The position numbers and the translations under genes are program-made. Shown here piece after piece: positions 8,594 to 64,000 of a DNA stretch of 64,000 bases. Source of the DNA: Gemmatimonadota bacterium (lineage in GTDB: Bacteria; Gemmatimonadota; Gemmatimonadetes; Gemmatimonadales; Gemmatimonadaceae); NCBI GenBank assembly GCA_021324635.1, contig JAJPIS010000109.1, positions 1 through 64,000 on the forward strand, in the 5' to 3' direction. Numbering within the stretch: position 1 is the stretch's first letter; each line of letters begins with the position of its first letter. The notes under the pieces were generated by a model. That model did no database searches and was not told the origin of the DNA. It was given only the letters and a program-made list of their open reading frames with translations.

Positions 8594-11500
8594 ATGACAT
8601 GTCCGAGAAGCTGGCCCACTCGGTCGCGCGCGTGGCGAGTTGGGTGCGCGGCGGCCATGGTGACCTTCGCGGCGGCCGCGGCTGCCCCCGGAGCAGTCGC
8701 GCAGGCGCCGACGGGGACGATCAGCGGCACCATCAGCGATCGCACGAATAGCACACCCGTGCCGGCAGCGCAGGTGCAGATCGTCGGCACGACCCGCGGC
8801 GCGCTCACGGGGAGCGACGGGAAGTTCCGCATCACCGCGGTACCCAGCGGCCCGGTGCAGCTTCGGGTGACGCGGATCGGCTACGCCGCCGAGACCCGCA
8901 CCGTCACTGTCCCCACCAACGATGTCGCGACCGTCGATCTCTCGCTCGCGCAGACGCAGGTCACGCTCGACCAGGTGGTGGTGCAGGCGACCGGGGGCAC
9001 CCAGCGCGAGCGCGAGGCCGGCATGACGATCGCCACGATCGCGGCCGACTCGGTCGCCAAGGCGGCGATCAGTACCTTCTCCGACCTCATCGCCGCGAAG
9101 GCGCCCGGGGTCAATGTCCAGCAGAGCACGGGCGAGGTCGGCTCTGGCTCGCGCATCCGCATCCGAGGCTCCAACAGCGTCTCGCTCCCGAACGACCCCC
9201 TGATCGTCGTCGACGGCATCCGCGTCACCAATCAGGCCGCCGCCGTGTCGGACGGCTTCACGCTGGCGGGCGGCCAGACACCTTCACGGATCGACGACCT
9301 CAACCCCGACGACATCGAGACCGTCGAGGTGCTCAAGGGGCCGGCCGCGTCGGCGCTCTACGGAACGGCGGCGTCGAACGGCGTGCTGCTCATCACGACC
9401 AGGAAAGGCGTACCGGGGCGCGCCCGCTGGAGTCTCCACGCCGATTGGGGGCCGGTGCGCAACGCGTCGAGCTTTCCAGCGAACTTCGGACAGGTCGGGA
9501 CGGCCCAGACCGCGAGCGGACCGCAGCGGGTCACGAATTGCAGCCTGATCCTGCAAGGCCTGGGGCAGTGCACCCGGACGGCCGATTCGCTGCTCGAGTG
9601 GAACCCCCTCATGTCGTCCCAGTTCTCGCCGTTCGTGAAGAACGCGAGCCGGACGCTCGCCGGTGGGAGTGTCGCCGGCGGCAACGAAGCCACGAGCTAC
9701 TATGTGAGCGGTGACTTCGACAACACGCACGGGCTCTACGCCAATAATTTCCAGCAGCGCAATAGCGCCCGCGCCAATCTCCACACGAACGCCTCGCCCA
9801 AGGTCGATTTCGCCGTCAACGCCGGGTACTTCCAGAACCGCCTCCAGCTTCCGCAGAACGACAACAACACGTACAGCCCCCTGGCCAGCGCTTATCTCGG
9901 CCAGCCGTTCAATGATCCGACGACGCACGGCTACGGCTTTCTCCTCCCCGAACAGACGAACAACGTCATCACGGGACAGAATGTCGAGCGCCTCACGGGC
10001 GGAGCGACCGGCAACTGGCGCCCGCTGTCCTGGCTGACGATCACGGGGATCGGCGGGGTCGACTACACCAACCAGACGGACCGGTTCTTCATCGCCCCGG
10101 GCGTGATCCCGCCGCCGGCCGGAGTGCTCCAGTCCACCGGTGAGGCGGTCTCCAATCCCTTCGAGTACTGGACCTACACGACGCAGCTCAACGCCACGGC
10201 GGACTACCCGCTGAGCGCGTCGATCCGGGGGACGTCGGCGATCGGCACGCAGTATACCAACGAGATCACGCGCGGGACGGAGGCCTCAGGGTTCGGGTTG
10301 GTCGCCGGTACCGGGTCGGTCGCCGGCTCGACGAGCAACTTCGCGGTCACCGAGGTCGGCAACCGGCAGGTGGTGACGCTCGGCTACTACGCCCAACAGC
10401 AGCTGGCCTGGCGCGACAAGGTCTTCCTCACCGGCGCGCTGCGCCTCGACGACAACAGCGCCTTCGGGCAGGTCTACACGCCGGCATACTACCCGTCGGT
10501 GAGCGCGTCGTGGGTCATCGGCGAGGAGCCATGGTTCCCGAGATCGTCCGCCGTCAGCTCGCTCCGGCTCCGTGCGGCGTTCGGGGTCAACGGCCAGCAC
10601 CCCGGGTTCCAGCAGGCACAGACGTTCTTCAATTCGGTGACGTATCGGTCCGCCGGCGGGGAGGTGCCCGGAGTGGTGCTTGCCAGCGTCGGCAACCCCA
10701 ATCTCAAGCCGGAGCTGTCCCGCGAGATCGAGGGCGGGTTCGACGCGGGCTTCTGGCACGACCGCATCAACCTCCAGGTCACCGGCTACGCGAAGACGAC
10801 CACCGACGCGCTCGTCGCGGTCAATCTCGTGCCGTCGGCCGGCGGCTTCACGGTCAATCAGGGCACGACGATCGCCGAGACGATCACGCAGTTCCGAAAC
10901 CTCGGGACGGTGACCAACCGTGGGCTCGAGATCCTCCTCTCGGCGAACCTCGTCGCCACCCGCAATGCCCGCCTCGATTTCACGGTCACACAGTCGCTCA
11001 ACAACAACAAGCTGGTGACCCTCGGCCCCGGGATCGCCCCGATCCGCTTCGGGCTCAGCAGCATCACGGGAGAGTTCATTCAGCGGCAGGAATCCGGCTA
11101 TCCGCTCGGCGGATTCTGGCAGCAGACGTACACGTACGCCGATCTCAATCACGATGGGATCATCGAGCCGAACGAGATCACGCTGTCGCCCGACGAGCAC
11201 TTCCGCGGCGCTCCGTACCCATCCCAGTCGTTGAGCCTCGGCCCGACGCTCTCGTTCCTCCGCTACTTCAGGATCGCGACCCTGTTCGACAACCGCTCCG
11301 TGGTCTACACCTTCAACGCGACGCAGCAGTTCCGCTGCTCGGTCGTCAACCCGTTCACGAACTGTCAGCAGGCGTACGACCCGCGCACGTCCCTCAAGCA
11401 GCAGGCGATCGTGGCCGCTGACGCGGTCGGCTCGGACGCCGGTTTCATCCAGGACGCGTCGTTCTGGAAATGGCGGGAGCTGTCCTTCACGGCCACCGCT

Positions 11501-53567: not shown

Positions 53568-54506
53568 TCACTTGGCGAGAATGCGCTCGAAGAGGTCGAT
53601 CGCCCGCGGGTCGCCGGACTGGCCGAGCCAGAAGAGTGCCCGGCGGCGGAGGGTCGGGTCGCGATTGCTCTGGGCGATCCGGAGGAGTGCCGGGACGCCC
53701 TCGTCGCGGGGCCGCTGCGAGAGGGCGAAGACCGCCTGCTCGCGGACGCCTTCGTCGACGCGGCGGTCTTCCGCCAGGGAGTCGAGCCCAGCGCTGACGT
53801 CGGCGGCCGCGAGCCCCATCCAGAAGACCGCCTGCTCGCGCGTGTGCTCGGGCCTCGAGGCGTCTCGTGCCAGCGACGCGAGGGCCGGCCAGATCTCGGC
53901 ACTGTCGGCCAGGAACGCCGGGAAGATCGCCTCGCTCCCGGGATGGGCCGGAAGCTGTCGCGCGAAGTCGACGAGCACCCGTGCCGCCTGCGGCGCCGAG
54001 ACCACGCCGAGGTCGTGCACGGGCGTCCCGCCGGGACGCGGCGAGCGCCACCGGCCACCGACGTAGGTCCGGATCCGCGTCGGGAGATGGTCGTGCATCT
54101 CGAGCACCACGCGCACCGGGCCCGAGTCGCAGCTCGAGTCCCACTCCACATCGTCGGAGTACGAGTACGACCGACGCCCGACACATCGGCGACCGGAGTG
54201 GCCGGCGTCGTCCTCGTCGTCGCCCTCCCGGCACGTCTCCGGGCGAGCGGCGAAGGTCATCCGGACGATCCCGTCGGACACGCCGGTGATCGCGCGCGCG
54301 AGCTGGGCGGCCGGCTGCGCGGGCGCCTGTGCGGGTACCTGTGCGGGTAGCTGTGCGGGAACGGCGGACGCGACGGCGCACAGTGCGGTCGCGAGCAGCG
54401 CCGCACCCAGCGCCCACCCCTTGTACGCGTGCGGCCATCCGGGGGTGCACTGACGCGCGCGGCGGACGATCGCACGCGCGGGCGAGGTACGCGGCGTCTG
54501 GCTCAT
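53568..54506 (-). CDS. Exported HEAT-repeat protein (operon gene 4)
   Basis: A 312-residue protein with a signal-like segment (WALGAALLATALCAVASAVP at about 30-50), a low-complexity QVPAQAPAQPAAQL stretch, a Cys-containing middle (AARPETCREGDDEDD, WDSSCDSGPVRVVLEMHDHL) and about three HEAT-like repeats at the C terminus carrying the signature QAVFWMG, QAVFALSQ and RALFWLGQ. It is a shorter relative of the gene just upstream, whose stop it overlaps as ATGA (54503-54506). Role unknown. Confidence 0.75.
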   Translation of the reverse strand: MSQTPRTSPARAIVRRARQCTPGWPHAYKGWALGAALLATALCAVASAVPAQLPAQVPAQAPAQPAAQLARAITGVSDGIVRMTFAARPETCREGDDEDDAGHSGRRCVGRRSYSYSDDVEWDSSCDSGPVRVVLEMHDHLPTRIRTYVGGRWRSPRPGGTPVHDLGVVSAPQAARVLVDFARQLPAHPGSEAIFPAFLADSAEIWPALASLARDASRPEHTREQAVFWMGLAAADVSAGLDSLAEDRRVDEGVREQAVFALSQRPRDEGVPALLRIAQSNRDPTLRRRALFWLGQSGDPRAIDLFERILAK

Positions 54507-55987
54507 TGGCTGATCAGCTCCTGAAGAAATTGCGCCGCCCGCGGGTCGCTCGATTGCCCCAGCCAGAACACGGCCCGCTTCCGCATCTCCGCATCCTTGT
54601 CCGACTTCGCGATGTGCATGAGGGCGTCGACGGCCGCAGGCTCCTTGCGCTGCGAGAGTGCGAAGACGATCTGCTCCCGCACTCCACTGTCGTCGGCACG
54701 ATCGTAGAGACTGAGCAGTCGGTCGATCGCGACGCCCCCCTGGCTCGCCCAGAAGATCGCCTGCTTGCGGACCTCGTCGGGCTGGCGGGCGTCGAGCGCG
54801 ATCGTGAGGAGCCAGTCGCCGGTGCCGCCGTGCTGCGAGATGCCGAACAGGATCTTCTGCTTGAGCGACGCACTCGTCGTCCGGCCGAACATGTCCTCGA
54901 GGAACGCCACCCCATCGGCGGCATGCGACTGGCCGAGCCAGAAGACGGCCTTCTCGCGCAGCGCCTCGGGGGCGTCGTCGCGCTCGGCGACTCGCTTGAG
55001 GGCCGCGAGCGCCCGTGGGCTCTCCTGTTGCGAGAGCGCGAACAGCGCCTGCTCACGAAGTTCCTGATCGCCTGGGCGGGCGGCGATGCTGTCCAGGATG
55101 TCGACCACACGTGGCTCCCGGATCTGCGAGAGCCAGAACACGGCCTGCCGCCGAACCTCGGGCGATGGGTCCTGGCGGGCCGCGGCGAGGAGGATATCCG
55201 CGTGGTCGGCCTCGTCCTTCTGCGAGACCAGGAAGAGCGCCTTGCGCCGGAGCCCGACGCTGCACGCATCGCGACGCGCGAGCACCTTCCGCAGGATCGG
55301 CATCGCGCGGTCGGCATCCATCTGAAGCAACGCGTTGAGCGCCGCGATTCTGACGTCGTTCTCGTCGGTCTCGCTGGGGCACGACTGCGAGTCAGGGAGC
55401 GGGGCGGCCGCGGACTCCGCCTGCTGGACGATCGACACCGTGCACGATTCATCGCCCTGCCGGGCCAGCGCGCTACAGATGCGTGTGCGGAGCGTTGCCG
55501 CATCGCCGCGCCTGGAGTCGGGCGCCCCGGGCGACCGCCCGGCCGCGCTCAGTTGACGGAGTGCGTCGAGCGCCTTGTGGAGGTCGGCCGTCTCCCCGGC
55601 CCGGTAGAGGGCGAACGCCTCGTAATAGAGCGCGAGCCCCGTGTAGGTCGACCGGGGGTACGTCGCCCCGATGCGATGAAACAGGTCGGCTGCGCGGCGG
55701 TAGTCGCCGTCGGCGAGCGCCGCCCGCGCAGCCCGATAGAGCGAGTCGGCGGGATCATCACTCGCCCACGCGGCCGGGGGCAGGTCATCCATCGCGTCAT
55801 CCGCGGTCACGGTCCCCTCTTCGGCCTGCGGATCCGCCGGCGCCGGGCGCGCATGGGACAGGGCGCGGGGAGCGGCCGCAGCGGCAGCAGCGGCCGGTCG
55901 GGCGTCCTGCGCGCGCACCGCGGCCCGGTCGAGGTGCGCCATCCAGAGCGTGAGCAGGGTCGCGCTCGCGAGTGCCAGAGTACGCAT
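54503..55987 (-). CDS. Exported TPR/HEAT-repeat protein (operon gene 3)
   Basis: A 494-residue protein with a signal (LALASATLLTLWMAHLDRAA). A TPR-like pair (LYRAARAALADGDYRRAADL, LALYYEAFALYRAGETADLH) precedes eight or so HEAT-like repeats with a strict signature ending in FxxSQ or FWLGQ: KALFLVSQ, QAVFWLSQ, QALFALSQ, KAVFWLGQ, KILFGISQ, QAIFWASQ, QIVFALSQ, RAVFWLGQ, about 30-37 residues apart. It should form a regular solenoid in the periplasm for protein binding. It lies 14 bases after the anti-sigma gene. Confidence 0.8.
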   Translation of the reverse strand: MRTLALASATLLTLWMAHLDRAAVRAQDARPAAAAAAAAPRALSHARPAPADPQAEEGTVTADDAMDDLPPAAWASDDPADSLYRAARAALADGDYRRAADLFHRIGATYPRSTYTGLALYYEAFALYRAGETADLHKALDALRQLSAAGRSPGAPDSRRGDAATLRTRICSALARQGDESCTVSIVQQAESAAAPLPDSQSCPSETDENDVRIAALNALLQMDADRAMPILRKVLARRDACSVGLRRKALFLVSQKDEADHADILLAAARQDPSPEVRRQAVFWLSQIREPRVVDILDSIAARPGDQELREQALFALSQQESPRALAALKRVAERDDAPEALREKAVFWLGQSHAADGVAFLEDMFGRTTSASLKQKILFGISQHGGTGDWLLTIALDARQPDEVRKQAIFWASQGGVAIDRLLSLYDRADDSGVREQIVFALSQRKEPAAVDALMHIAKSDKDAEMRKRAVFWLGQSSDPRAAQFLQELISQ

Positions 55988-56001
55988 GGGCAGCAGAATC
56001 C

Positions 56002-56799
56002 TCAGGTTCCCGCAGGCCCCGCCGGGACGGCGGTGCGGATGCGGGTCAGCACGTGTCCGCGATCGAGCGTTCGGTCGATCATCTGTCGGTCGTCGCGAGA
56101 GTGATCCGGGGCGACGGCCACGATCTGGACGAGGACGAGCTCGAGGTCTTCGAGCAGGCGCCGCCGCTGTGGATCGGAGGCCGCCCGAGAATCGAGGAGC
56201 AGTCGGGTAGTGGACAGGACGTCCCGCGCCCAGCCCGCGAGCTGGGCATCGGAGGCCGCGACATCGGCGGTGGCCGCGCCGGGGGCACCGCGCCCTCGCT
56301 CGGCCTCGTGGAAGGCGGTCAACAGAGCCTCTGCCTGCGTGAGGTTCCGGGCGACGGCGATCTGGTACGCGGCGTCCTCGCGGGCGCCCGCGGCGCCTGG
56401 CGCGCCGACGCCCGCCGCCGGCCCTGACGCCACGGCGACCGCGTGGCCGCCACTTCGGCCATCCCCTGCCCCACTGGCCGACCCGGCGCGCAGCCACCAT
56501 CCGGTCCCGACGCCGAGCGCGAGTATCGTGAGGCCGGCCGCCATCCGCCACGCCGTCACCTGCCACCGGTACCGCCCCGGTCGGGCGAATGGTGCCCCCG
56601 AGCGCCCGGTAGGACGCGCGCGGCGCCGCGCCTCGATGGCGGCCCACATCTCCTCGCGCGGCACGGGCGGCGGCTGATGATAGGCGGCCGCGAGCTCACG
56701 CAGTGCGGGCTCGAGCGCGGGCTCGGTCTCGTCCCCGCCGTCGTGCGGCCTGTCGCCTGCCCTCGCGGCCGCCCTGTCGTCCGGCCACTCTCGCGTCAT
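56002..56799 (-). CDS. Probable anti-sigma factor without zinc finger (operon gene 2)
   Basis: A 265-residue protein. The cytoplasmic part is short and lacks the usual HxxxCxxC zinc finger (ALRELAAAYHQPPPVPREEM is the nearest to a conserved block). One membrane segment (MAAGLTILALGVGTGWWLRA) lies near residue 95. The periplasmic part is helical (YQIAVARNLTQAEALLTAFH, WARDVLSTTRLLLDSRAASD, RRLLEDLELVLVQIVAVAPD). Its start overlaps the sigma stop as ATGA (56796-56799), the main reason to call it an anti-sigma factor. Confidence 0.7.
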   Translation of the reverse strand: MTREWPDDRAAARAGDRPHDGGDETEPALEPALRELAAAYHQPPPVPREEMWAAIEARRRARPTGRSGAPFARPGRYRWQVTAWRMAAGLTILALGVGTGWWLRAGSASGAGDGRSGGHAVAVASGPAAGVGAPGAAGAREDAAYQIAVARNLTQAEALLTAFHEAERGRGAPGAATADVAASDAQLAGWARDVLSTTRLLLDSRAASDPQRRRLLEDLELVLVQIVAVAPDHSRDDRQMIDRTLDRGHVLTRIRTAVPAGPAGT

Positions 56800-57347
56800 G
56801 ACTGCCACTCCCCGGCAAAATCCGCGAGCGCGACCCGCAGCTTGGCGCGCGCGCGGAAGAGCTGCGCTTTCGACGTCCCCGAGTCGACGCCGAGGATCGC
56901 CCCGATCTCTTCGTGGGTATACCCTTCGACGTCGTGCATCAGAAACACCGTCCGATAGCCCTGTGGCAATTGCCTGATCGCCTGGGCCATCCGCTCCTTG
57001 AGATCGGGCTCGCTCGCCCGCGGCTGCGGGCTCTCGATGGACTCGATGGTCGCGTCGTCGGCGGTCGCCATGCGAGCAGTGGCACGCTTGGTCGCCCGGA
57101 GTCGGTTGAGGGCGACCGACATGGTGATGGCGTGCAGCCAAGTAGCGAGGCTCGACTGGCGGCGAAATCCGGCGATGCGGTCGAAGGCGCGAATGAAGGT
57201 CTCCTGGGTGAGGTCGCGGGCGAGATCGTCATCGCCGGTGAGTCGGAAGGCGAGGCGGAACACGCGGTCGACGTGCCTGTCGTACAGCGCACGCTCGGCC
57301 GCAGGGTCGCCTGCTTCCACCCGATCGATGAGGTCGCCTTCTTCCAC
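56796..57347 (-). CDS. ECF sigma-70 factor (operon gene 1)
   Basis: A 183-residue sigma factor with region 2 (ALYDRHVDRVFRLAFRLTGD, DLARDLTQETFIRAFDRIAG) and region 4 (LPQGYRTVFLMHDVEGYTHE, EIGAILGVDSGTSKAQLFRA). It heads a four-gene minus-strand operon with the anti-sigma and two HEAT genes. It is divergent from the replication initiator gene with 164 bases between them. Confidence 0.9.
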   Translation of the reverse strand: MEEGDLIDRVEAGDPAAERALYDRHVDRVFRLAFRLTGDDDLARDLTQETFIRAFDRIAGFRRQSSLATWLHAITMSVALNRLRATKRATARMATADDATIESIESPQPRASEPDLKERMAQAIRQLPQGYRTVFLMHDVEGYTHEEIGAILGVDSGTSKAQLFRARAKLRVALADFAGEWQS

Positions 57348-57511
57348 CCAGCCTCACGGTTGGGACGCTGCTCCACGGGACGGTGCACTGGGACGTCGGG
57401 CGATATCTCGCTGTCCGGCCGTCTGACACCACGATGTGGGAAACCGTTGCGCGCGGCACGGGCCGGCCGGGACCCCTAACTTCCCGCGCCAGGTCGCCCT
57501 ATCTTCCCCCC

Positions 57512-59272
57512 ATGTCCTCCCGCGTGCCAAGCGTTCAGCCGCCTGTCCCCTGGGAGGAGCTGCTCCTGGACCCGCGGCGGGGACTGGGAGGCCCGCACCC
57601 GGTCGCCCTTCGGCTGGTCGACCTCCCGATCATCCGGGCGGTCCAGAAGCTGGAGCCGCCCGAATCGCCGGCTGGGCGTCTGCCCGCCCACGCCTACACG
57701 GCCCGGCTGCGGGGCCGGCGCGCCGACGGCTCGGCGTACGATGTGGTCGTCAAGGGCGACGACAAGCACGGGCTCCCGTACGGCTCGGACGGGGACATCT
57801 TCTTCGCCCTGTTCAAGATTGCGGACGAGCTGCCGGAGCCGGACCGCACGCACCTGTTCACGACCGGCGAGTTCCGGGACCCGACGGTCGGCATGATCGC
57901 GCGGGCGATGGGCCGCCCGATGAACGGTGAGACGAGTCGCCGCATCCGCGAGGCGCTCCACCGCCTGGCGCATCTGCGGATCGAGATGCACGTGACCCAG
58001 GCAGCGCAGGAGCTGGGCGCGCTGCTCCTCACCCGATCGGCGTCGCCGGACGATGGCAGCGCGACGGGCGTCCACCCGACGGAGCCGGACGGGCCACCGG
58101 TCCCCCGTCCCCGCAAGGGCGTGGACACGATCGGGGTCTTGCACGTGCTGGAGTACGCGGTCACCCGCACGTACGACCGGCGCCCCGAGGGCGAAGACTG
58201 GATCGCCCACCTCCAGATCAATCCCGTCTGGCTGCGCGAGCTGGCCGGCGGGTGGGCGGCGTGGATCGGTGTCGAGCACTATGTCGGACTCCGTAGCCCG
58301 ATCGCGAAGCGGCTCTATCAGCTCTTTGCCGGCGAGTCGGCGCGCGGTGTGCCGGCGCCCTGGTCCTATACGCTCACCGAGCTTCAGGAGCGCTGCGGCA
58401 CGGTTGGGATCGCACGCCGTCCGGCGGCGGTCCGCGACTCGATGCAGGAAGCGGCTGACGAGCTGGTCGCCTGCGAGATCCTCGCGGCGGCCGACTGCGA
58501 CAAGATCGCGCACGGACGATACGCGTTCTCGTTCACGCCCGGCGCGCAACTACGGATGGCGGCGCTCCTCCGCGGCGTCGGAGCGCTCGACGCGCGCGAG
58601 CTTCGCGTGCAGCGGATGCTGCTGCGCTACTTCGGCGTGACGCGCGAGGCGGCCGACCGGATGCTGGCCGAGCGGCCGAATCGGGTCCACGATGCGCTCC
58701 AGTACCTGCTCTACGTCCGCGATACCGACGTCGCCCGTGTGCGCCGGAGCTGGTCGGCGTACTTGCTCAAGCTGGTCGACGGCGATGCGAACCTCGCGGG
58801 CGATGTGAAGTACCAGGGCTGGCTCGCACGCCAGCGGCGGCAGGTGCTGCGCCGCGATGTGGTGCAGATCCTCCCGCACGGCACGGGCGAGACGGGCGTC
58901 GCGCCGGCCGCATCGGTAGGCGACGGCACGGCGGACGCGCGGCACGGCGCCCGCACACCGCTGCTCGACGCGGCCCGCACGGTCGCCCGCTCGACCGAAG
59001 CCCGGGCGCTCTGGGACCGGGTGCGGCCCGCCGCGGCGGCGCGGTACGCGTCGACGCACTCGGCCTACGTGGAGGACCTCGCGGCCTACGAGCTCCAGGG
59101 TGACACGCTCTGCTGTGTCACGGCGACGGAGTTCACGCTGCGGAAGCTCGAGGCGGTCGGCACGGTCCCGGTCGAGGAGGAGCTCCGCCGCGCGACGGGC
59201 GGGGCCGTGCGGACCCTGCGCCTGGAGGTCTTCCAGCCTGAGCGCCACGCCGCGCCGGCCGGTCTTCTGTAA
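57512..59272 (+). CDS. Plasmid-type replication initiator (RepA/RPA-like) with DnaA domain-I-like tail
   Basis: A 586-residue protein. Residues about 40-400 resemble the replication initiator protein A family of plasmid replicons: VVVKGDDKHGLPYGSDGDIF, FALFKIADELPEP, a winged-helix region (ARAMGRPMNGETSRRIREAL) and a second one (YVGLRSPIAKRLYQLFAGES, WSYTLTELQERCG). The last 80 residues (about 498-575) follow DnaA domain I in spacing: ALWDRV, AYELQGDTLCCVTATEF, EEELRRATGGAVRTLRLEV. Domain I of DnaA recruits the DnaB helicase. No iterons, DnaA boxes or parAB genes were seen nearby. The SDR gene follows after 5 bases. Confidence 0.7.
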   Translation: MSSRVPSVQPPVPWEELLLDPRRGLGGPHPVALRLVDLPIIRAVQKLEPPESPAGRLPAHAYTARLRGRRADGSAYDVVVKGDDKHGLPYGSDGDIFFALFKIADELPEPDRTHLFTTGEFRDPTVGMIARAMGRPMNGETSRRIREALHRLAHLRIEMHVTQAAQELGALLLTRSASPDDGSATGVHPTEPDGPPVPRPRKGVDTIGVLHVLEYAVTRTYDRRPEGEDWIAHLQINPVWLRELAGGWAAWIGVEHYVGLRSPIAKRLYQLFAGESARGVPAPWSYTLTELQERCGTVGIARRPAAVRDSMQEAADELVACEILAAADCDKIAHGRYAFSFTPGAQLRMAALLRGVGALDARELRVQRMLLRYFGVTREAADRMLAERPNRVHDALQYLLYVRDTDVARVRRSWSAYLLKLVDGDANLAGDVKYQGWLARQRRQVLRRDVVQILPHGTGETGVAPAASVGDGTADARHGARTPLLDAARTVARSTEARALWDRVRPAAAARYASTHSAYVEDLAAYELQGDTLCCVTATEFTLRKLEAVGTVPVEEELRRATGGAVRTLRLEVFQPERHAAPAGLL

Positions 59273-59277
59273 GGAGA

Positions 59278-60141
59278 ATGCAGGGACGGGTCTGCCTGGT
59301 CACGGGCGCGACGAACGGGCTGGGGTTCGTGTCGGCGCGGGTGCTCGCGGAACGCGGCGCGCACGTGATCGCCGTCGGGCGCGATGCCGAGCGCACGCAG
59401 CGGGCCGTGCAGGAGATCCGCGGGCGGACGGGGAATGCGGCCGTCGACGGCCTGACGGCAGACCTGTCGTCGCAGCGCGACGTGCGCGCCCTCGCGCAAC
59501 AGGTGATCGCCCGCTACCCGGCGCTCCACGTGCTCCTCAACAACGCCGGCGCCATGTTCTTCCAGCGCCAACTCAGCGCCGACGGGATCGAGATGACCTT
59601 CGCACTGAATCATCTCGGCTATTTTCTGCTGACCGAGCTGCTCCTGCCCTTGCTCACGGCCAGCGGCGCACCGGGTCGGGCGGCCCGCATCGTCAATGTG
59701 TCGTCGGAGGCGCACCGCCGGGCCCGGATCGACTTCGATGATCTCGAGTCCGCGCGCCGCTATGTGCCATTCCTGGTGTATTCGCGCTCGAAGCTCGAGA
59801 ACATCCTGTTCACGTACGAGCTGGCCCGCCGACTTGCGGCCTCGCCCGCTGCTGAACGCGTCACCACGAACACACTCCACCCCGGCGTGGTCGCGAGCGG
59901 CTTCTATGGCCGCCGCCGCGGGGTGATCCGGGCGGCCTACCCCATCTTCCGGCTGTTCCTCATCTCGTCCGAGCGTGGCGCCAGGACGCAGACGTATCTC
60001 TCGAGCTCCCCTGCGGTCGAGGGCGTCACCGGCCGCTACTTCGTCAAGGAGCGCGAGCGTCGCTCCGCACCGGCGTCCTACGACGTCGAGTCTGCTCGAC
60101 GCCTGTGGGAGATCAGCGAGCGCCTGGCGCCGACGAGCTGA
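59278..60141 (+). CDS. Short-chain dehydrogenase/reductase
   Basis: A 287-residue SDR of the retinol-dehydrogenase-like type. TGATNGLG binds the NAD(P) cofactor, NNAG follows the fourth strand, NVSS carries the catalytic Ser and YSRSKLEN holds Tyr168 and Lys172. Arg at GRDAERTQ suggests NADP(H). It oxidises or reduces a hydroxyl or carbonyl substrate that cannot be named. AAGGAG immediately precedes the ATG, overlapping the end of the initiator gene region, so the two are probably co-transcribed. Confidence 0.9.
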   Translation: MQGRVCLVTGATNGLGFVSARVLAERGAHVIAVGRDAERTQRAVQEIRGRTGNAAVDGLTADLSSQRDVRALAQQVIARYPALHVLLNNAGAMFFQRQLSADGIEMTFALNHLGYFLLTELLLPLLTASGAPGRAARIVNVSSEAHRRARIDFDDLESARRYVPFLVYSRSKLENILFTYELARRLAASPAAERVTTNTLHPGVVASGFYGRRRGVIRAAYPIFRLFLISSERGARTQTYLSSSPAVEGVTGRYFVKERERRSAPASYDVESARRLWEISERLAPTS

Positions 60142-62208: not shown

Positions 62209-64000
62209 TCAATCGGCGCCGCGGGCCCGGTCCGGTGCCTTGTCGCGCGTCGTCGTCTGTCGACCGTCGCGGGTGGTGGCCGGGGGCCGTGGGGTGGCCG
62301 GCGGCAGTGTTGGCCGGCCCTGGGTGCGCGCCTGCTGATAGCGCTGCTCCAGCTCCTGGTGCTCGGCCTCGTGCCGCTGCGCCAACTCCGCCGCGGACTC
62401 CCCGCTCGGCGGCTGCGCGAACTCCGCCCTGTGCCGCGCTTCCATCTGCGCCCGCTCCGCCTGGTACGCGTGATCGAGCGGCGACGCCGCGACGCGCTGC
62501 GGGCCCACCGGACCCGGTGCCGGAGGCGTCGTGGAGCGGACGGGCATCGCGGTGGCCGTCGCACCGACCGGCCCACGCTCACCCGGCACCGGCATCGAAG
62601 CGGGCTGCCGTCCCGTCGCCGGCGACCCGCCCGGTCCGCCCGATCCCGAGGCCGCCACCGATGGATGCAGCATCGGCACGGGTCGGATCGGGAGTATCGC
62701 CGGCGGCGGCGCGGTCGGCCGGAGCGATGCGACCTGGGACGGTGCGAGCGGGCGGCCGGCGTTTCCGGCGAGCACGCGCTCCTGCACACTGAACGGCACG
62801 GGCGCCGGCGGCGGCGTGTGGAGCGCCATGACCGGGCGCGCGGCGAGCGCGGGCGGCGGGACGACCGGGGCGTGGGCCGGTCGCGTGACGCCGGCGGCGC
62901 TGCCGACCGTCGCCGGGCCGCGCCAGAGCAGACTCGCCCGCGTCGGCGTCACCGCAGGGGCGATCGCGACCGGCCGAGCGGACAGGAAGTCGCGGGTCGG
63001 CGCAATCGCGACGCTACGCACCGGCTCGGCGTTCGCGAGCGCGCGCTCCGGAACCACGGTCACCGCCCCCGGCACCATCCGGTTCCGGTATGTCGTGTTG
63101 TTGATGTTGGTCACGTTGGTCACGTTCGTGACATTCGTCACGTTCGTGACATTGGTGATGTTGGTGATGTTCGTGACGTTGGTGACGTTCACCTGCCGCA
63201 CGTAGCCCGGACTCGCCAGGTACGCCGGCCGGTAGACCTCCTCCGGGCCCAGTGGGAACCAGCCGACGCGGCCAGCCTCGGGACCAGCGCCGCCGACGAA
63301 GACCACGAGCGCGGGAGCGTACACCGGGCGCTCCACGACGACCCGTCCCGGGCACCATCCCCAGCGGCCCTCGATGTACGCCCAGCGCCCGTAGTGGAAC
63401 GGCGCCCATCCCCAGGGGGCGTCATCGACCCAGGTCCAGCCCCACCGGTTCACCCAGACCCAGTGGCCGTAGTGGTATGGCGCCCAGCCGGATTCCACCG
63501 CGACCGGGTACCACACCGGCCCGTACACCGGGTCGTTTCCCCAACGGCCGTAGTCGTCCAGGTCCTCGGTGCCGGCCATGTCGGCGCCGACATAGCGGCG
63601 CGCCTCGGCCGCGCGCTCCTCCCGCAGATCGCGGCCCTCCGACCACCGATCGAACGCGTCGTACGACCCGGCGTCGCTCACATCGAACGTCGGCGCGTCC
63701 ACGCCGCGGACCGTCGCCACCTGCCGCGCGTTGACGTGAAACGACGAGCCGGCCGACGTCACATCCGCCGCGCCCGACCAGACCGTCACCGACGTCGTCG
63801 AGCCGTCGGGCGAGACATCGATCCGATACTCGCCGCGGCCGGCCGGGACGACCACCGCGTTGGGCGCGTCGATCTCCTCATCGTCGCCCTCCTCGTTCCG
63901 CACGCGCTCGATCACCGTCCCCTGCGGGATACGCACCTGAAAGGCGTGGTCGTCCAGCCGGACCACGTCCAGCTCCGTCGCGCTCGACAGGCGCAGTCCG
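62209..64000 (-). CDS. FecR/DUF6600-type exported protein, 5' end beyond window
   Basis: The frame runs to the right window edge without a start; about 597 residues are present and the signal and first 100 or so residues are missing. It parallels the protein at 35382-37682: FecR-like part (YRIDVSPDGSTTSVTVWSGA), Trp-rich core (YGPVWYPVAVESGWAPYHYG, WVDDAPWGWAPFHYGRWAYI), Asn-Val/Ile-Thr triplets, and a Pro-rich tail ending in a Gln/Glu/His-rich helix (MEARHRAEFAQPPSGESAAE). The two genes are clear paralogues about 26 kb apart. Confidence 0.8.
   Translation of the reverse strand, partial: GLRLSSATELDVVRLDDHAFQVRIPQGTVIERVRNEEGDDEEIDAPNAVVVPAGRGEYRIDVSPDGSTTSVTVWSGAADVTSAGSSFHVNARQVATVRGVDAPTFDVSDAGSYDAFDRWSEGRDLREERAAEARRYVGADMAGTEDLDDYGRWGNDPVYGPVWYPVAVESGWAPYHYGHWVWVNRWGWTWVDDAPWGWAPFHYGRWAYIEGRWGWCPGRVVVERPVYAPALVVFVGGAGPEAGRVGWFPLGPEEVYRPAYLASPGYVRQVNVTNVTNITNITNVTNVTNVTNVTNVTNINNTTYRNRMVPGAVTVVPERALANAEPVRSVAIAPTRDFLSARPVAIAPAVTPTRASLLWRGPATVGSAAGVTRPAHAPVVPPPALAARPVMALHTPPPAPVPFSVQERVLAGNAGRPLAPSQVASLRPTAPPPAILPIRPVPMLHPSVAASGSGGPGGSPATGRQPASMPVPGERGPVGATATAMPVRSTTPPAPGPVGPQRVAASPLDHAYQAERAQMEARHRAEFAQPPSGESAAELAQRHEAEHQELEQRYQQARTQGRPTLPPATPRPPATTRDGRQTTTRDKAPDRARGAD
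63097..63192 (-). repeat. Asn-Val/Ile-Thr triplet repeat in second DUF6600 gene
   Basis: About ten consecutive Asn-X-Thr codon triplets are present, at the same place relative to the Trp-rich core as in the first paralogue. Here the DNA units differ at many third positions while the protein pattern holds. Confidence 0.82.

Follow-up and report, generated by a model that had tools for sequence, protein, structure and literature searches.

A plasmid-type replication initiator from Gemmatimonadota with a C-terminal homolog of DnaA domain I

We propose that a gene at positions 57512-59272 (plus strand) of the window, the 64,000-nucleotide stretch of DNA analysed here, encodes the initiator for a family of secondary replicons (megaplasmids) in Gemmatimonadota, with a C-terminal tail that acts as the corresponding domain does in DnaA; we put the probability of this reading at roughly two in three. 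The proposal is based on domain homology, a predicted fold, an association with megaplasmids and par genes, the anatomy of the origins, and purifying selection. The window corresponds to bases 1-64000 of contig C106 (76,392 bp), one of the 127 contigs of a 4.09-Mb genome with Gemmatimonadetes MAGs and Gemmatirosa as its named relatives.

The open reading frame is intact, with an ATG at 57512, a stop at 59272 and no internal stop codons, and we annotate its 586-aa product as a replication initiator with an RPA/RctB-like core and a C-terminal DnaA domain I, on the strength of the intact frame, a Pfam match, the existence of orthologs and the selection acting on the gene. When the whole protein was searched with hmmscan, RPA (PF10134, plasmid replication initiator protein A) was the only Pfam match (9.8e-9; 35.5 bits against a curated cut-off of 27), and neither an AAA+ ATPase nor domain IV of DnaA was found. 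The full-length AlphaFold model (pLDDT 76) begins with a winged-helix-like domain (residues 28-165; 57593-58006, on the plus strand like all parts of the gene) that includes the RPA match at residues 76-166 and resembles RctB (5tbf) and RepE54 in Foldseek. This is followed by a second winged-helix-like domain (residues 207-345; 58130-58546), also placed from the model and Foldseek, with a conserved SPIAKRLYQL helix, and by a helical domain (residues 360-448; 58589-58855) with similarity in hhalign to the Rep_3 initiator RepB-I of pPGA1_78, which aligns with profile columns 251-433 of the Rep family core. A disordered linker (residues 449-490; 58856-58981; pLDDT <50), the counterpart of DnaA domain II, then leads into the tail. 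For the full model, the nearest solved folds in Foldseek are domains 2-3 of RctB (5tbf, 9.3e-7) and RepE54 entries (~1e-3). On the model, the window Rep is an initiator with a two-winged-helix fold of the RctB/RepE type, and the plasmid-type initiator proposed by the sequence-only reading is borne out by the RPA match together with this predicted fold. Synonymous sites are near saturation in the substitution analysis of rep, so only the contrast between regions of the gene counts: pN is 0.57 in the fast-evolving linker versus 0.12-0.18 in the core, with the C-terminal tail intermediate. This pattern points to clear purifying selection on the core, where it appears strong, and on the C-terminal domain, with the linker excepted.

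The C-terminal tail (residues 491-575; 58982-59236) is securely a homolog of DnaA domain I, even though a single-sequence hmmscan misses it. Searches for DnaA_N with the whole window protein and with its C-terminal 96 residues gave no match, indicating that the window's domain has diverged; the homology is secure because Pfam matches in relatives, a decoy-tested alignment, a PDB profile search and the predicted fold support it together. At the equivalent C-terminal place, Pfam DnaA_N (PF11638) exceeds its curated score in four relatives (G114, G266, G355 and G017; E values of 7e-10 to 1e-11). We aligned the tail by hhalign to a target of 25 Gemmatimonadota DnaA domains I, with 100 column-permuted decoys; an alignment of orthologs only scored 23.6 (best decoy, 12.7), with the match starting at the first Trp, and a broader alignment with plasmid homologs added scored 42.4 (decoy maximum, 12.1). 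DnaA domain I was also the best PDB match of the family profile (3e-13; 4tps). AlphaFold modelled residues 484-586 with a pLDDT of 89.3, the domain being folded as helix-helix-strand-strand-helix-helix-strand, as in DnaA domain I, and the best PDB fold in Foldseek was again DnaA domain I (4TPS; target TM 0.81, rmsd 1.7 A over 80 columns). Thus, a resemblance that had been proposed by eye is upheld by profile and by predicted structure, and the motifs on which it drew are present: L500-W501, at the positions of E. coli L5/W6; the EL..TL strand pair, modelled as beta strands 524-529 and 532-537; F541, at the position of F46; and a closing GG strand. That closing strand reads GGAVRTLRLEV, so that its spacing is GG-x-V-x-x-L-x-L-x-V, one residue beyond what had been described.

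A different origin for the tail, as some other KH-like alpha/beta module (DciA or the tau C-terminal domain), is very improbable. DciA (8a3v, 7ykm) is among the Foldseek matches next behind DnaA, and tau is weakly present in the family profile search, but its score there is 0.06 as against 3e-13 for DnaA domain I, and DciA was not found in that search at all. The DnaA_N matches in four relatives likewise count against both candidates, as does the presence of the host's own DciA on contig C38, which is likely to be the general helicase loader of the host. With DnaA outscoring both in the profile search and in Foldseek, we rejected DciA and tau as the source of the tail.

Rep orthologs in two congeneric genomes (G001 and G002) are 69-71% identical to the window protein, and homologs with 30-37% identity occur in Gemmatirosa (G018) and in G032; searching 395 genomes from the phylum with a profile added homologs in G017, G214 and G314, along with three genomes from a different family. 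Both Gemmatirosa megaplasmids (NZ_CP007129 and NZ_CP007130) carry rep homologs, and ParA and/or ParB adjoin rep on these megaplasmids and in several other genomes. Two relatives assembled as single contigs (G023 and G048) were found to have neither rep nor a megaplasmid-type ParB. No tRNA gene lies on the rep contigs of the genus (341 kb in all, C106 among them), an absence consistent with a secondary replicon but not proof of one. We read GC skew on the Gemmatirosa megaplasmids, leaving out C106 and G002:C43, which are linear fragments. The fitted skew origin is 35 kb away from rep on one of them and 7 kb away on the other, with a sampled skew that is itself weak; permutation p values at the position of rep are 0.0075 and 0.035, and those for a test on the maximum are 0.11 and 0.32. 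One homolog, a diverged copy in G032 (G032:C1:668557-670320; L034), lies on a 3-Mb contig that also bears dnaA. Hence rep is not always extrachromosomal, and this copy may be chromosomal.

The region ahead of rep has a recurrent anatomy: six replicons have a winged-helix gene there, along with two groups of iterons that face each other and, often, a DnaA-box-like site. In most replicons, the gap between the partner gene and rep holds four repeats of ~17 bp; one pair, in reverse orientation, lies on the side of the partner gene at a spacing of 58-81 bp, and the other, in forward orientation, lies on the side of rep at a spacing of about 60-106 bp. A blind search for clusters of inverted repeats did not separate the origin from the GC-rich background; only matrices transferred between replicons succeeded. 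For the best pairs, 4-5 of the best 6 sites at another locus fall in the equivalent gap (p of 6e-7 to 6e-5), as in the transfers from G001 to G002 (1e-6), from GemC4 to G032C4 (1e-6) and from G001 to contig C31 of the window genome (6e-7); between more distant replicons the transfer was weaker or absent. DnaA-box-like sites with at most one mismatch are found in 5 of 7 origin gaps, where shuffled sequences would give 0.6, suggesting that host DnaA takes part in initiation. Together, parAB, the winged-helix gene, two facing iteron groups, the DnaA-box-like site and rep define a replicon type for Gemmatimonadota megaplasmids, which we did not see described in the literature covered by our searches. 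The winged-helix partner protein (alignment A5; L111:4727-5650, L066:9166-10071 and others), which is encoded divergently and adjoins rep in the replicons seen, has a conserved C-terminal strand motif and matches no Pfam family above the cut-off.

We propose that the two RctB/RepE-type winged-helix domains bind the iterons, about four of 17 bp, which in relatives lie between the divergent partner gene and rep. The flexibly tethered tail would link initiators to one another through its Leu-Trp helix, and the face around F541 would dock the replicative helicase DnaB, bringing it to the melted origin. That the tail brings DnaB to an origin opened by the Rep core is the most likely course by analogy with two systems: E. 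coli DnaA domain I, in which Glu21 and Phe46 contact DnaB and Trp6 mediates dimerisation (PMC5448010), and TrfA-44 of RK2, which loads the Pseudomonas helicase through direct contact (PMC4980987). Host DnaA probably assists at the DnaA box, where domain I of DnaA itself might not be needed. The sequence-only reading had gone further, suggesting that such a Rep could load helicase without host DnaA; this is a conjecture, and the DnaA-box-like sites in most of the origins argue for cooperation.

Alternatively, the main role of the tail could be to associate Rep with itself or to contact domain I of host DnaA, with DnaB loaded by box-bound DnaA. The pattern of conservation would fit such a role: only one column of the C-terminal alignment is invariant, that of the dimer-patch Trp (W501, equivalent to E. 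coli W6), and W6 is critical to dimerisation in E. coli (PMC5448010). The DnaB-contact residues vary, with the Phe46 position lost in Gemmatirosa-type proteins and the Glu21 position having no match in the window protein, and the frequency of DnaA-box-like sites is likewise in keeping with loading by DnaA. Nonetheless, the Phe46 equivalent is kept, as F541, in the window genus and in four distant relatives with a clear DnaA_N, and E. coli domain I performs both jobs simultaneously, such that self-association and helicase docking are not exclusive. We consider it rather unlikely that the tail acts mainly in self-association or DnaA contact, and favour a tail that also docks DnaB.

The window genome itself departs from the layout seen in its relatives. 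An ECF sigma factor gene (56796-57347, minus strand; Pfam Sigma70_r2/r4_2), a neighbour from outside the system, occupies the place taken in relatives by the partner gene and origin; the gap between it and rep (57348-57511), unlike that of relatives, contains no iteron array, AT-rich stretch or DnaA box when searched at the gene. The next gene downstream encodes a short-chain dehydrogenase (59278-60141, plus strand; Pfam adh_short 1.5e-30). A search of the whole of C106 found no iteron array, no par genes of the megaplasmid type and no winged-helix partner gene. The contig is not circular, having no end overlap and ending within transposase-like sequence, and the chromosomal dnaA lies apart from it on contig C94. 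The suggestion that the window belongs to a secondary replicon is thus likely to be right for the rep lineage, given its megaplasmid relatives and par genes, whereas for C106, which is linear and has no iteron array or par genes of this type, it is tentative. The winged-helix partner gene and iterons are instead found on contig C31 (iterons at 8905, 8975, 9222 and 9283), and a megaplasmid-type ParAB is on contig C4; the ends of C31 and C4 overlap by 30 bp, with one reading frame continuing across the join. With rep and the origin on different contigs, Rep would, barring a chimeric assembly, have to work on the origin in trans.

Either a real break has parted rep from its origin in this genome, or the assembly is misjoined. 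An artefact of binning or assembly, with the order in congeners being the natural one, would be compatible with our main proposal; the genome is fragmented, and rep lies next to its partner gene and iterons in both congeneric genomes, G001 and G002, but the genes on either side of each break point are intact and ordinary, and we regard an artefact as possible though doubtful. A second explanation for the layout is that the window gene is a stranded, perhaps domesticated, former plasmid rep that sits in the chromosome and now drives no replicon. Its sigma factor and dehydrogenase neighbours, the lack of iterons, par genes and partner gene on C106, and the homolog that shares a contig with dnaA in G032 would all be expected of a stranded gene. 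Such a gene would not be expected to show the clear purifying selection seen on rep, nor to reside in a genome that keeps an iteron origin and partner gene on C31, joined by the overlap to ParAB on C4, and the tRNA-free rep contigs of the genus also count against a chromosomal location. We consider a stranded rep unlikely, and retain an active initiator as the preferred reading. Contig C31 also encodes a second DnaA (G000:C31:16544-17626; L002, L173), ~6 kb from the partner gene, that has AAA+ and DNA-binding domains and lacks domain I; it is 51% identical to the chromosomal DnaA, and has no close counterpart among the relatives searched.

The two-winged-helix core predicted for the window Rep is common to RctB, the initiator of Vibrio chromosome 2 (5tbf, 5ubf), and RepE of plasmid F (1rep), and relatives of the window Rep are like these systems in having iterons beside the gene, often with a DnaA-box-like site. 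To our knowledge, DnaA domain I is not known in RctB or RepE, and we know of no report of it in TrfA. Helicase recruitment by iteron initiators such as RctB is an open question, with an RctB-DnaB interaction and a role for DnaA at ori2 still to be demonstrated according to a review (PMC6090056); an RctB-fold relative bearing DnaA domain I would offer, for one branch, a concrete answer that can be tested by mutating particular residues. TrfA-44 is a plasmid initiator in which an added region contacts DnaB directly (PMC4980987); this region is N-terminal in TrfA-44, and the tail of the window Rep is C-terminal. DnaA itself shares domain I and a flexible linker with the window Rep, which differs in having no AAA+ domain, no domain IV and a reversed order, with domain I at the C-terminus.

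Two other plasmid initiators share only the tail. The DnaA-like-I replicase of Rhodobacterales (pPGA1_262, WP_027246467) resembles the window Rep in its C-terminal DnaA_N (7.8e-7) and adjacent parAB, and differs in being 227 aa long with a single N-terminal winged-helix region; only its C-terminal domain aligns with the window Rep family, and an N-terminal relation is undetectable. Similarly, a DnaA-like protein of a Rickettsiales plasmid (Megaera polyxenophila, WPX99611) has a C-terminal DnaA_N (1.8e-11), and its alignment with the window Rep family is confined to that domain. Rickettsia shuttle vectors with dnaA-like and parA genes replicate (PMC3244465), the domain content given here being read from the Megaera protein. 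Given that DnaA-like Reps of both orders also end in DnaA_N, the principle of the fusion has precedents. Within the searchable literature, what appears to be new is the fusion of the RPA/RctB type, together with the layout of its origin; a fusion of an RPA-type Rep with DnaA domain I was undescribed in the literature we searched, which left most subscription journals outside, and its novelty is accordingly provisional. Sequence comparison suggests that several plasmid lineages captured the DnaA domain I docking module separately. As a more tentative generalisation, DnaA domain I may be a portable helicase-docking module that has been captured at least three times by unrelated plasmid initiators (the RPA/RctB type of Gemmatimonadota, those of Rhodobacterales and those of Rickettsiales), C-terminally in the cases seen, enabling the replicon to recruit DnaB itself; the replicon of the window genome might then pair Rep with the second DnaA of C31. 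If this is true, the jobs of DnaA would be split in that genome between Rep and a DnaA without domain I.

Several further observations concern proteins related to Rep or encoded near it. A rep gene 67% identical to that of the window is present in a MAG labelled Chloroflexi (L059; JANWJD010000207.1), probably on a misbinned Gemmatimonadota contig. Many Gemmatimonadaceae have a single copy of an RPA-like protein of ~300 aa without the tail (L014-L031; G000:C42:86882-87493 in the window genome), encoded 70-90 kb from dnaA wherever one contig holds both genes; it is possible that this protein is a domesticated initiator near the chromosome origin. Within the window, two adjoining repeat-rich proteins with recurring AVFWLGQS/ALFALSQ motifs are encoded beside the ECF sigma factor (53568-56647), and ten 9-bp units at 63097-63189 encode VTN/ITN repeats within a large minus-strand protein ORF.
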